From NCBI GenBank assembly GCA_945903545.1, contig CAMDOO010000030.1, positions 1 through 37,113 on the forward strand: a stretch of DNA of 37,113 nt, written 5' to 3'. This document shows, one piece after another, positions 7,279 through 9,338 of this stretch (positions are counted from its first letter, which is position 1; each line of letters starts with the position of its first letter). The notes beneath the pieces were generated by a model. It saw nothing but the letters and a program-made list of their open reading frames with translations. It was not told where the DNA came from and searched no databases. Both the position numbers and the translations under genes were made by a program. This DNA is from Opitutus sp. GAS368 (GTDB taxonomy: Bacteria > Verrucomicrobiota > Verrucomicrobiia > Opitutales > Opitutaceae).

Positions 7279-8307
7279 ATGAGCCCCGTCCGAATTTGGA
7301 GCCTTTTGGCGTGCCTTGCGCTGGCCGGGGTGGCGTGGGCGGCGGAGCCGGCGCCCGCCGACCTGCCCGCCTCCTTCACGCTGGTGCGGGCTCCGTGCGA
7401 CGACTTTTGCCCGGGCTACACCGTCTCGATCTCGAGCGATGGGACCGTGGTGTTCGACGGGCGCGAATGGGTGACGTGGCAGGGCTTGGCGACCAAGCAG
7501 GTGCCGGTGGCCCGGCTCGCGCCGCTCTTGCAGAAGCTGCGCGACATCAATTTCTGGCAGATCGACGGCAAGGGCGACGGGCGCGTCATGCTGCCCAACG
7601 GCACCGTCACGCTGACCCTCCCGCCCAATCGGCCGGTGTATTCCGTGACGGTTTTCCAGGGCGACAAATCCAAGCAGGTGCAGGGAATCACCGGCGGCCG
7701 CTACGCCGAGGGCGATCTCCCGGAGCTCATCGACCAGGTCGCGGACATCGCGGACTGGATCGAGCGCAGCACTCGCAAGTACGGCGACCCTGCCAGTGCC
7801 CGGGTCGCACCCGTGCCGCCGACCAGTGGAGTCGCGCTCGCCCTGCCTGCCACGCCGCAACCCGCGTCCCCGACCGTGCAGCCCTCGACCCCGCCTCCGG
7901 CCCCACGTTCCAACCGGGTCCTCACCGCCATCGTGGCGGCCCAGGGCAATCAAGGCATGGTCACCACCCCGGGACAGGCCCCGACACTCGTCGGGTCCAC
8001 GTCTGACGGCGGCAGCTTTGTCACCGCCCCGGGACAACCCCCGACCCGGGTCGTGCTCACGCCCGGTGGCGGCAGCATGATCATCACGTCCGGCGAGGCG
8101 CCGACCACCGTCATGCCGATTGCCGGCGGGGGAACCCTCATCACGCCCCCGGGCCAGCCGCCGTCGACGATGGTGCCCACCCCGGGCGGCGGCAGCACGA
8201 TCTACACGCCCGGCGAAGCTCCGACGATGGTCGTGCCCACCGCCGGCGGCGGGAGCATCATCTATGCGCCGGGCCAGCCTCCGGTTGTGGTTATGCCGAC
8301 GAATTAG
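7279..8307 (+). CDS. Exported DUF6438 protein with a six-copy 20-residue repeat tail
   Basis: The 342-residue product has a Sec signal peptide (about 1-21, cleavage near AWA). Residues 30-165 match DUF6438: FTLVRAPCDDFCPGYTVSIS with two conserved cysteines, then DGTVVFDGREWV. A proline-rich linker (about 175-215) leads to a tail of six near-identical 20-residue repeats, of the form GGG-S-x-I-x-x-PG(Q/E)(P/A)P-T-x-V-x-P-T, running to the C-terminus. The tail is probably an extended low-complexity surface segment, and repeat number may vary between strains. It is a single-gene unit. The function of DUF6438 is not established. Confidence 0.75.
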   Translation: MSPVRIWSLLACLALAGVAWAAEPAPADLPASFTLVRAPCDDFCPGYTVSISSDGTVVFDGREWVTWQGLATKQVPVARLAPLLQKLRDINFWQIDGKGDGRVMLPNGTVTLTLPPNRPVYSVTVFQGDKSKQVQGITGGRYAEGDLPELIDQVADIADWIERSTRKYGDPASARVAPVPPTSGVALALPATPQPASPTVQPSTPPPAPRSNRVLTAIVAAQGNQGMVTTPGQAPTLVGSTSDGGSFVTAPGQPPTRVVLTPGGGSMIITSGEAPTTVMPIAGGGTLITPPGQPPSTMVPTPGGGSTIYTPGEAPTMVVPTAGGGSIIYAPGQPPVVVMPTN

Positions 8308-8535
8308 ATCGGAGGGTCGGATGTTCAGAGGTTCGGACCCAAAATCTGGTTTTATCCGTTAGATCCGCGGTTAAAAAGGATCGGCACTCTGCGGTCCCTG
8401 CGCTCTCTGCGTGAAACAAACCGAGGATCGGAACCGCGATCCGTGAAATCCGCGGTCAAAACGGTTCGACGGCTGGAATCGGGGCCAGCCAAAACAGGAT
8501 TGATTCACCCGCGGTGACACCCCACGTTCCGCCTT
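8308..8535. other. Gene-free gap with repeat fragments
   Basis: It contains GGAGGGTCGGATGTTCAGAGG (8311-8331), TTTTATCCGTTAGATCCGCGG (8351-8371), and CTCTGCGGTCCCTGCGCTCTC (8388-8408), each from a repeat family found elsewhere in the window. No gene or terminator is evident. Confidence 0.6.
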
Positions 8536-8572
8536 CCCTGCTTCGCCCACTTGGGCTTCGCAGGGCAGGCCC
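8536..8572. repeat. tRNA-flanking hairpin, upstream copy
   Basis: CCCTGC, then TTCGCCCACTTGGGCTTC, then GCAGGG: outer arms pair (CCCTGC/GCAGGG) and an inner GCCC/GGGC stem forms around ACTT. It is followed by CAGGCC. A second copy at 8667-8701 directly repeats it on the other side of the tRNA with compensatory changes in the outer stem. Confidence 0.8.
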
Positions 8573-8592
8573 CTCCGCAAAGAGGGCGCAAT

Positions 8593-8669
8593 GGACGCTT
8601 AGCTCAGTTGGTTAGAGCACGTGCTTCACACGCACGGGGTCACAGGTTCGAGTCCTGTAGCGTCCACCA
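8593..8669 (+). tRNA. tRNA-Val (anticodon CAC), CCA encoded
   Basis: A complete cloverleaf: acceptor GGACGCT/AGCGTCC, D-arm AGCTCAGTTGGTTAGAGCA, anticodon stem CGTGC/GCACG with loop TTCACAC (anticodon CAC), and T-arm ACAGG-TTCGAGT-CCTGT. The 3' end ACCA is genomically encoded. CAC reads GUG valine codons. The gene sits between two direct-repeat hairpins, and its last six bases (CCACCA) belong to a 19-bp inverted repeat. Confidence 0.97.
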
Positions 8670-8763
8670 TGCTTCGCCCGTTGGGCTATGCATGGCAGGC
8701 CATTAAGTCGCAGGCCGGCAATTGGCGTCGCTGGCCCTGGAATTAACGGGCGAAGCATGGTGG
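8664..8763. repeat. 19-bp inverted repeat overlapping the tRNA 3' end
   Basis: The left arm CCACCATGCTTCGCCCGTT (8664-8682) includes the last bases of tRNA-Val. The right arm AACGGGCGAAGCATGGTGG (8745-8763) is its perfect complement. The 62-nt interior includes the rest of the second covarying hairpin (GCCCGTTGGGC, closing GCATGG). Overlap of a palindromic arm with a tRNA 3' end is the position at which integrating or homing elements often sit. Confidence 0.85.
8667..8701. repeat. tRNA-flanking hairpin, downstream copy
   Basis: CCATGC, then TTCGCCCGTTGGGCTAT, then GCATGG, followed by CAGGCC. Relative to 8536-8572 the outer stem changes from CCCTGC/GCAGGG to CCATGC/GCATGG, so both arms changed together and pairing is kept. 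Confidence 0.8.
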
Positions 8764-8820
8764 CCCTGCGAAACCTTCTAGGTGAAGCGGGGCGTAGCCT
8801 TTAGGCGAAGCGGGGCTGCA
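8764..8820. repeat. GGCGAAGCGGGGC tandem repeat tract before the GIY-YIG gene
   Basis: Near-tandem units CTTCTAGGTGAAGCGGGGCG and CTTTAGGCGAAGCGGGGC (period about 22 bp) follow the tRNA inverted repeat. They share the core of the tRNA-flanking hairpins, GGCGAAGC. Confidence 0.65.
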
Positions 8821-8864
8821 GATCGAAGGGGTTCGCATCTCAAAAAAGTACCCGTTCGGCCACT

Positions 8865-8898
8865 TTCAGTGAAAGATTCGCCCCATTCTTTCCGTTCT
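8865..8898 (+). promoter_or_regulatory. Shared 34-bp upstream motif, copy 1 (GIY-YIG gene)
   Basis: TTCAGTGAAAGATTCGCCCC, then ATTCTTTCCGTTCT, ending 10 nt before the GIY-YIG ATG. The same pattern, same orientation relative to the gene, precedes comEC (17698-17731) and the intact GxxExxY gene (27710-27743). Invariant cores are AGTGAAAGAT and CGTTCT. It could be a promoter, an operator, or a dispersed repeat. Confidence 0.55.
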
Positions 8899-8908
8899 CA
8901 GGGGTGCC

Positions 8909-9151
8909 ATGACTTACGTCTATTTGCTCCGAAGCGAATCTCATCCCGATCAAACCTACATCGGCTTCACCCGTGACCTGCGCACCCGTCTTGCCGCGCA
9001 CAACGCCGGCCTGGGCAAGCACACGGCGAAACACCGTCCTTGGCATCTCGTCACCTACGTCGCTTTCAGCAACCCCTCCCGGTCCCTTGCATTCGAAGCC
9101 TACCTGAAATCCCATTCAGGAATCGCGTTCGCCAGAAAACGCCTGTGGTGA
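8909..9151 (+). CDS. Single-domain GIY-YIG nuclease
   Basis: The 80-residue protein is a minimal GIY-YIG domain: YVYLLRS (first strand, GIY equivalent), TYIGFTRDLRTRLAAHNAG (YIG strand and catalytic-helix Arg), WHLVTYVAF, and FEAYLKSHSG with the conserved metal-binding Glu. This resembles the stand-alone YhbQ-like class (UvrC-type catalytic fold), with no added DNA-binding domain. By family it would cut DNA with a single metal ion. The gene follows tRNA-Val and a tract of covarying hairpins; a purine-rich GGGG sits 5-8 nt before the ATG. Its position suggests a role with those palindromic repeats rather than housekeeping repair; this is inference. Confidence 0.85.
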   Translation: MTYVYLLRSESHPDQTYIGFTRDLRTRLAAHNAGLGKHTAKHRPWHLVTYVAFSNPSRSLAFEAYLKSHSGIAFARKRLW

Positions 9152-9290
9152 TTGCCACTCGCCCACGCTTGCCATTTTCGTTGATTCTCCATCGTAAAAC
9201 AGCCGGCAAAGTAACCGGCAGAAAATGATAGTGATCATTTGATGGAAAAGTTTTAAGTGGCTCATTGATGGGATCTAGTGGTCTTGACTA

Positions 9291-9338
9291 ACCGGCAAAA
9301 GAACCGGCAAAAGAACCGGCAAAATGACCGGCAGAATA
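9291..9338. repeat. Four tandem 12-bp units ACCGGCAAAAGA
   Basis: Units at 9291, 9303, 9315 and 9327 read ACCGGCAAAAGA twice, then ACCGGCAAAATG and ACCGGCAGAATA. Two more diverged units lie at 9201-9224. The period is a multiple of three, so a reading frame passes through as Asn-Arg-Gln-Lys repeats. Exact copies suggest recent slippage. Confidence 0.85.

Follow-up and report, generated by a model that had tools for sequence, protein, structure and literature searches.

Several described systems bear on the locus analysed here, a tRNA-Val gene followed by hairpins and a small GIY-YIG nuclease gene in a stretch of 37,113 nucleotides from Opitutus sp. GAS368 (contig CAMDOO010000030.1; the whole stretch is called the window below). 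The 3' ends of tRNA genes are classic targets of integrases, and elements with a tyrosine integrase that use them insert there and keep the tRNA intact. Free-standing homing endonucleases of the Seg and I-TevI type combine GIY-YIG catalysis with separate DNA-binding parts, lie as genes between genes and have empty alleles. REP sequences are short dispersed hairpins with a stem mismatch and with a GTAG tetranucleotide on their 5' side, and they are thought to be moved in trans by their transposase, an HUH tyrosine nuclease (RAYT, TnpA-REP). TnpA-REP reads a folded strand with a stem bulge together with a guide tetranucleotide, and the IS200/IS605 elements also use folded-strand hairpins and recognise the target by pairing with a guide sequence (PMC8266576). 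Slx1 is a nuclease of branched DNA, and a repair role has been predicted from genomics for its prokaryotic relatives (PMC1564403).

The tRNA-Val(CAC) gene of the window (8593 to 8669, on the forward strand like all parts of the locus described in this paragraph; found by ARAGORN and with the Rfam tRNA model) ends in an encoded CCA. Hairpin 1 (HP1; 8667 to 8695, identified by folding) is flush with the tRNA and consists of the stem CCATGC/GCATGG, the loop TTC/TAT and the inner stem GCCC/GGGC; the tRNA's own CCA supplies the 5' bases of its outer stem, so that the tRNA 3' end pairs in this hairpin, and it may travel with copies. The inverted repeat reported in the earlier note, with the tRNA's CCACCA in its left arm, was confirmed as perfect over 19 bp. 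The left arm (8664 to 8682) combines CCACCA with the head of the element, and the right arm (8745 to 8763) is an inverted copy of this tRNA-element junction that ends where hairpin 2 starts (HP2; 8763 to 8793, of opposite polarity, GCCCTGC GAA ACCT/AGGT GAA GCGGGGC). The near-tandem GGCGAAGCGGGGC units of the earlier note are present, yet they look like a partial duplication of HP2 in this species (8794 to 8816, GTAGCC TTTA GGCGAAGCGGGGC), a single plain copy being found in the congeners G001 and G002 (locus L011). The open reading frame (ORF) at 8909 to 9151 encodes, as had also been claimed, a single-domain GIY-YIG protein of 80 residues; it is Slx1-like and matches Pfam GIY-YIG (PF01541) with an expectation value (E) of 1e-13. 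Judging from the sequences compared below, we think it rather likely that these parts form a minimal mobile element, made up of CCA, HP1, a spacer with an inverted copy of the head, HP2 and the GIY-YIG ORF, in which the Slx1-like nuclease would act on the hairpins and the unit would enter tRNA 3' ends. The tRNA itself is the target of this element, not its cargo, and lies outside the unit; the earlier note had placed it inside the cassette, and this part of its proposal was not supported.

Folded as one strand, positions 8664 to 8763 gave z = -6.1, and none of 200 shuffles was as good; the small hairpins alone were of modest stability (z about -2.1, with 7 of 200 shuffles as good for each). 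The HP1 of the window matched R1, a model of this hairpin, at E 1.4e-6, this copy being itself one of the 23 rows of R1.

The protein carries the residues that would be expected in an active GIY-YIG enzyme. Among 34 members of the family, G19, H31 and E63 were invariant, and Y5, Y17 and R27 were present in 90% or more; the catalytic residues of GIY-YIG nucleases are among these. Purifying selection was indicated by ratios of nonsynonymous to synonymous divergence (dN/dS) of about 0.08 and 0.06, with dS near saturation. The predicted model (pLDDT 97) was one compact domain of 80 residues with no low-confidence tail, and the closest folds in Foldseek were of the Slx1 type, namely At-HIGLE (7wme, E 6.5e-5) and Slx1-Slx4 (7cq3 and 6sei, both below 1e-3); UvrC appeared at E about 1 and I-TevI was not among the 50 matches listed. 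No NCBIfam family model matched any of the 34 members, and a profile match was found to UPF0213 BH0048 (PDB 1zg2, E 1e-10). With such standalone prokaryotic Slx1-like proteins the window protein shares its domain and its size, that of a minimal variant without other domains; they differ in that the section of PMC1564403 on them describes them as predicted repair proteins and mentions no link to tRNA positions, hairpins or mobility.

The genomic position of the gene family was assessed in two sets of loci, in which a tRNA or tmRNA gene called by ARAGORN was counted if it lay upstream of the ORF, at most 600 nt away and in the same orientation. The first set drew on matches in 37 of 95 genomes of relatives, the best 80 of at least 536 matches in GTDB contigs and three viral contigs, and comprised 141 loci after removal of seven same-place repeats (L057, L072, L073, L074, L079, L144 and L154; L154 is the same as L147, and neither has a tRNA). 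A tRNA or tmRNA gene preceded the single-domain GIY-YIG gene in 102 of these 141 loci, while the chance level for this placement is about 0.4% (39 tRNAs in 3.08 Mb). About a dozen of the loci without an upstream RNA gene had less than 420 nt of contig on that side, and tRNAs placed downstream or on the other strand were rare (L017, L045, L048 and L107). The second set was drawn after the hypothesis had been formed, from a profile scan of 288 genomes of the phylum, 108 of which had a match. It contained 62 loci, none of them in the first set: 22 from genomes new to the analysis and 40 from the upper part of the list, most rows near contig ends being passed over. Here the upstream RNA gene was present in 49 of 62 loci; of the remainder, four, of which two lay at the edge of a contig, fitted a loose pattern for bare tRNA 3' ends, five had too short a flank and four had none. 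In 18 loci without a near tRNA, Rfam models yielded one tRNA (L035) and no other RNA family; in 16 loci, searched separately, they gave a single match, to a tmRNA cut by the contig end (L088).

Over both sets, the RNA genes included tmRNA and 17 tRNA isotypes, that is all except Cys, Ile and Trp. The genome of the window holds two homologues, one behind tRNA-Val and one behind tRNA-Ser, and genome G008 has two related copies (85% identical in amino acids), one at tRNA-Ala and the other at tRNA-Gly. The hosts of RNA-linked loci include Verrucomicrobiota, Alphaproteobacteria, Desulfobacterales, KSB1, Planctomycetota (Kuenenia), Kiritimatiellales, Tectomicrobia and a Harrisonbacterium, and the rows with named hosts in a protein tree (87 rows, 80 columns), which served for context and for this count, fall into eight phylum-level groups. 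For 47 of 87 proteins the nearest relative in sequence sits at a different RNA gene. These counts, together with the pairing of hairpin and gene by genome and the empty sites given below, supported the proposals of the earlier note that hairpins and a single-domain GIY-YIG gene form one mobile cassette and that this cassette is linked to tRNA 3' ends. Of note, a divergent GIY-YIG group behind tRNA-Met (L059, L062 and L071) has a repeat of the tRNA 3' half, at least 30 nt long, beyond the ORF, as in classic integration.

The hairpins of the window recur at the other loci. Between the RNA gene and the ORF, an HP1-type hairpin with a 3x3 internal loop TNC/TNC was found in 71 of 102 loci, flush with the CCA in 68, and an HP2-type hairpin with a GNA/GNA loop in 48 of 102; the corresponding rates in 2040 shuffles, which preserved dinucleotides where feasible and were otherwise plain, were 1.2% and 1.7%. 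The loops are mostly TTC/TTC or TTC/TAC in HP1 and GAA/GAA or GAA/GTA in HP2, and because of these loop sequences HP2 resembles HP1 turned round. The resulting GCGAAGC sequence is known to form a very stable mini-hairpin in DNA. Under a second rule, 67 loci showed a stem, with its outermost pair at the first C of the CCA in 41, at the A in 14 and at the first base of the element in 10. An inverted copy of the element head (at least 9 nt) was present in the spacer of 62 of 99 loci, as against 0 of 495 plain shuffles, and extended into the tRNA end in 51, so that repeats like that of the window are general. In four loci (L091, L096, L114 and L142) the hairpin block is tandemly repeated between tRNA and ORF.

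Covariation had been proposed by the earlier note from the two hairpins that flank tRNA-Val. Between these two there is one compensated pair (C-G to A-T), which is set by the tRNA's CCA and is weak by itself; over hairpins from different loci the signal was strong. In 23 copies of HP1, 97% of cells were paired and 34 were doubly changed, compared with 10.9 ± 2.5 after shuffling, and in 17 copies of HP2 there were 22 doubly changed cells compared with 4.7 ± 2.3, in shuffles that ignore relatedness. Shifting the partners by one to three columns abolished the signal in both.

Copies without a gene are frequent in the genome of the window. By eye, about 13 of its 39 tRNAs are followed by some form of the element, only two of which have the gene; a strict motif for the head was found behind 9 of 38 tRNAs in this genome and behind 4 of 30 and 5 of 27 in two congeners (shuffles 1.9%). 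A looser automatic calling of elements behind the tRNAs of the three congeners was set aside, as it fired in 92 of 920 shuffled flanks and missed clear cases. Model R1 gave 42 matches at E≤1 in this genome (150 of 4408 candidates scored), 12 of which lay within 100 nt of a tRNA. Since most of the matches are dispersed, the hairpin away from tRNAs is REP-like. One of the hairpins (L284, G000:C4:76330-76358) lies inside a long ORF, by eye an enolase-superfamily gene, and is apparently read through. The earlier note had suggested testing for an enrichment of GIY-YIG genes beside the hairpins; by genome, hairpin and gene did go together: among 57 genomes, 15 had both, 3 the hairpin only, 7 the gene only and 32 neither (Fisher p = 4e-6, with genomes treated as independent; HP1 E≤0.001, gene E≤1e-4). 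With REP/REPIN-RAYT systems the element thus shares short dispersed hairpins with a stem mismatch, here as an inverted pair, and many gene-less copies in its own genome. It differs in that the nuclease is of the GIY-YIG type, Slx1-like, and not an HUH tyrosine nuclease, that the target is the 3' end of a tRNA or tmRNA gene, and that the nuclease gene is part of the unit and forms its end. A RAYT would not fit into the compact unit (337 bp in L133); one elsewhere in the genome was not sought. REP/RAYT systems are the nearest in working, but membership fails because the type of nuclease differs. In Bradyrhizobium, a solo HP1 and HP2 (L323, G156:C44), 89% like the tRNA-Tyr unit of that genus, stands with no tRNA called directly upstream.

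Orthologous loci were compared for empty sites, as the earlier note had advised. None was found at tRNA-Val, where the element is common to all three congeners, with the ORF in pieces in G001 and intact in G002 (in the latter, a contig break lies at the tRNA end); other tRNA genes did show them. At tRNA-Leu(TAG), G000 has CCA followed by exactly 80 bp of an ORF-less element, whereas in G002 the flank follows directly after the discriminator base; this downstream flank aligns between the two over 678 bp at 87%, and no CCA is encoded there in G002. At tRNA-Gly(TCC), CCA plus element is present in G000, CCA alone in G001 and neither in G002, and at tRNA-Leu(TAA), CCA plus element is present in G002 and neither in G000. 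These three cases fit a CCA that would arrive or leave with the element. The element is absent behind four tRNAs that encode no CCA (L248, L200, L186 and L246; Leu-TAG and Gly-TCC in G002, Leu-TAA in G000 and G001), and the orthologues of these tRNAs that bear the element do encode it.

Occupation by units with an ORF also varies. At tRNA-Leu(CAG), G383 has an ORF-bearing unit, and G038, G353 and G499 have a terminator-like hairpin straight after the CCA; the downstream flank also aligns for G038 and G353. At tRNA-Gly(CCC), three congeners have three different inserts ahead of a similar terminator-like hairpin. In 450 nt behind tRNA-Tyr of 12 Bradyrhizobium genomes, we found type A with an intact ORF (two genomes) or a decayed one (one), type B with the ORF (two) or without it (one), type C without an ORF (two), a hairpin remnant (one) and nothing recognisable (three).

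We considered the possibility that the nuclease is a host gene for DNA repair or for processing of the tRNA trailer, held next to the tRNA by an old operon-like linkage, with the hairpins as trailer structures. The strong purifying selection, the repair role predicted for prokaryotic Slx1 relatives (PMC1564403) and the position of the elements in the tRNA trailer, ahead of the terminator-like hairpin at tRNA-Gly(CCC), would suit such a function. Yet the gene is patchy (37 of 95 relatives, 108 of 288 genomes in the phylum), it switches between isotypes, comes and goes and turns over, its ORF is decayed in G001 and G103, and it occurs in tandem copies; an old linkage is already strained by the empty sites. 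We regard a host gene as highly improbable.

Hairpins were also found behind tRNA ends that have lost, or never had, the rest of the gene. Bare sequences from T-arm to CCA, flush with HP1 and with no tRNA called, are present at L030 (24 nt), L103, L122 and L147; further bare ends are L029, perhaps a decayed tRNA-Val, and the tmRNA-like L075, L090 and L124. Rfam found no tRNA or tmRNA at the bare-end loci. In the genome of the window, L287 and L286 are hairpins placed directly after a bare or degenerate tRNA 3' end, without a tRNA gene in the vicinity. It seems that copies take along as much as about 25 nt of tRNA when they move, the alternative being loss of the tRNA 5' part. Taken together, comparison of the loci supports mobility through empty and filled sites, different elements at one tRNA, ORF-less copies, bare ends and limits of homology.

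Movement might be due to another machinery, an unrelated integrase or general recombination between tRNA 3' ends, with the nuclease gene as a hitch-hiker and possibly a helper elsewhere in the genome. That tRNA 3' ends are integrase targets is in keeping with this, and so are five of 102 loci (L023, L042, L049, L080 and L082) in which the last 19 nt of the tRNA (position 58 to 76) recur as an exact copy next to the element. These copies belong to a different kind of tRNA-end unit, with 100 to 200 bp between the tRNA and the copy; in some of the five loci there is also an inverted copy of the T-arm together with a GCGAAGCG-rich tail, and 3'-end copies of at least 15 nt occurred in 0 of 9172 control comparisons. 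A recombinase would find no room in the unit, which is mostly 300 to 550 bp long and in L133 measures 337 bp, about 240 of them GIY-YIG ORF; integrase genes nearby were not separately searched. Furthermore, the window protein had no match in plasmid and phage records (at E 1e-8 and 1e-6), and the family profile had three matches in viral contigs, one of them identical in sequence to a bacterial contig. Like tyrosine-integrase elements, the unit lies at the tRNA 3' end and leaves the tRNA whole, but it is a few hundred bp long, uses tmRNA and 17 isotypes with one protein family, and usually lacks the far-end repeat. A passenger role for the nuclease gene is, in our view, improbable.

The unit itself seems to span the stretch from the CCA to the stop codon of the ORF, because homology between units at different tRNAs stops at these ends, similarity drops after the stop codon and second heads follow there. 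Homology between L106 (Phe) and L133 (Tyr) forms a single block that takes in the last 5 nt of the tRNA and stops 5 nt beyond the matched ORF; nine other pairs in the same comparison had less clean boundaries. In Bradyrhizobium, similarity drops right after the TGA. A second element head was found within about 70 nt 3' of the stop codon, mostly at once, in 12 of 97 loci, compared with 0 of 95 in a control region, the heads of other loci reaching the same score in 5 of 1157 comparisons. By extrapolation from these loci, the right end of the window copy would be the stop codon of its ORF. Two other candidates for the far end were rejected. A general hairpin behind the ORF was found by fixed motif in 2 of 102 loci, compared with 1 of 98 in the control region, and a far-end duplication as a general rule was mostly missing in ORF-bearing units, both with exact suffixes and in a search allowing mismatches. 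An exact 19-mer of the tRNA 3' end lay within 250 nt after the ORF in 3 of 102 loci, all of the divergent Met group.

These limits also bear on a homing-type spread, in which the nuclease would break a tRNA 3' end or a resident hairpin and host recombination would copy the unit through the shared T-arm, CCA and hairpin sequences, much as for a free-standing homing endonuclease, and the hairpins would serve for landing only. A unit that extends from CCA to stop codon, tandem stacking at the junction of CCA and hairpin, and tRNA 3' ends that accompany copies are all as expected from homing, and empty sites exist: occupied and empty alleles at a fixed target were seen for the ORF-less copy at tRNA-Leu(TAG) and for the ORF-bearing copy at tRNA-Leu(CAG). 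On the other hand, the protein is a bare 80-residue domain without the DNA-binding part that I-TevI carries, its closest folds are of the Slx1 type, the targeted tRNA 3' ends belong to many isotypes and have little in common beyond T-loop and CCA, and ORF-less copies, with their hairpins, predominate in the genome of the window. We consider homing unlikely, though it deserves more weight than the host-gene and passenger readings.

For a transposition-like element, the steps could be as follows. The Slx1-like nuclease would recognise the hairpins, with their unusual 3x3 internal loop (TNC/TNC, or GNA/GNA on the opposite strand), in the form of folded single strands or cruciforms and would nick them at their base. 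Once freed or copied, the unit would take along as much as about 25 nt of the tRNA 3' end and enter another tRNA 3' end, guided by the near-universal sequence from T-arm to CCA, which the unit would restore. Pairing of CCA with TGG may serve as a guide, a role ascribed to the tetranucleotide of IS608 and REP systems (PMC8266576). The TGG of the element can pair with the CCA of the target, which is a likeness to IS200/IS605, the guide role being conjecture; the unit differs from these in having no HUH transposase. A place behind the CCA would be harmless to the tRNA, and the unit could be transcribed from the tRNA promoter. Copies without an ORF would be mobilised in trans, in the way suggested for REP sequences. 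Whether all this amounts to an undescribed class of elements, among the smallest that bear a gene, in which the target's CCA completes HP1, the Slx1-like nuclease, rather than a transposase or integrase, is the mobility enzyme and ORF-less copies are REP-like dependents, in eight or more phylum-level groups, is a more tentative matter, to which we give slightly less than an even chance.

Several observations weigh against a nuclease-driven mobile element. No HP1 was found by the rule used in 31 of 102 loci, and the protein model lacks an extra DNA-binding domain. A simple insertion should leave a repeat of the tRNA 3' end on the far side of the ORF, and such repeats are mostly missing (L020 has 10 nt). 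The type-A unit of Bradyrhizobium lies at tRNA-Tyr alone in all 12 carriers among 146 genomes; jumps between tRNAs are therefore rare in this genus. The protein tree is poorly resolved, with 5 of 84 inner branches starred. Seven of 22 gene-bearing genomes had no strong HP1 match, and three genomes had hairpins and no gene. Finally, 30 of the 42 hairpin matches in the genome of the window are dispersed away from tRNAs, some of them weak. The earlier note had named hairpins that occur widely without association with GIY-YIG genes as a sign against its idea: hairpins away from tRNAs do occur, yet hairpin and gene go together by genome.

The window contains a further hairpin 5' of the tRNA (8536 to 8565, forward strand; CCCTGC TTC GCCC/GGGC TTC GCAGGG), so that hairpins on both sides of tRNA-Val, as originally described, were indeed seen. 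This upstream hairpin is a separate copy and not a part of the cassette, to which it had been assigned: congener G002 lacks its stretch at the corresponding position and otherwise resembles the window in the sequence 5' of the tRNA. The arrangement of a tRNA between two hairpins is for this reason most likely a later accident in this species and not the unit. Upstream, positions 7279 to 8307 encode a DUF6438 protein with GGGS..PGQ.PT repeats running through its C-terminal part, and downstream of the unit positions 9200 to 9335 hold a short array of (A)ACCGGCA(G/A)AA repeats.

Full-text searches of open-access papers, judged by title and the start of the abstract, listed nothing on GIY-YIG genes at bacterial tRNA or tmRNA 3' ends. 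Novelty would lie in the combination of parts, and should the behaviour of the nuclease favour plain homing, the element would better be seen as a variant of homing endonucleases. The gene is carried by more than a third of the sampled genomes in the phylum (108 of 288), and both in this phylum and in others it follows tRNA and tmRNA genes. For annotation, bare tRNA 3' ends and hairpins behind the CCA mark copies of the element. If the proposal is true, a nuclease of the Slx1 kind would be a transposition enzyme, REP-like hairpins would have a second kind of driver that is unrelated to the first, and parasite DNA would make up a common part of the trailers of bacterial tRNAs.

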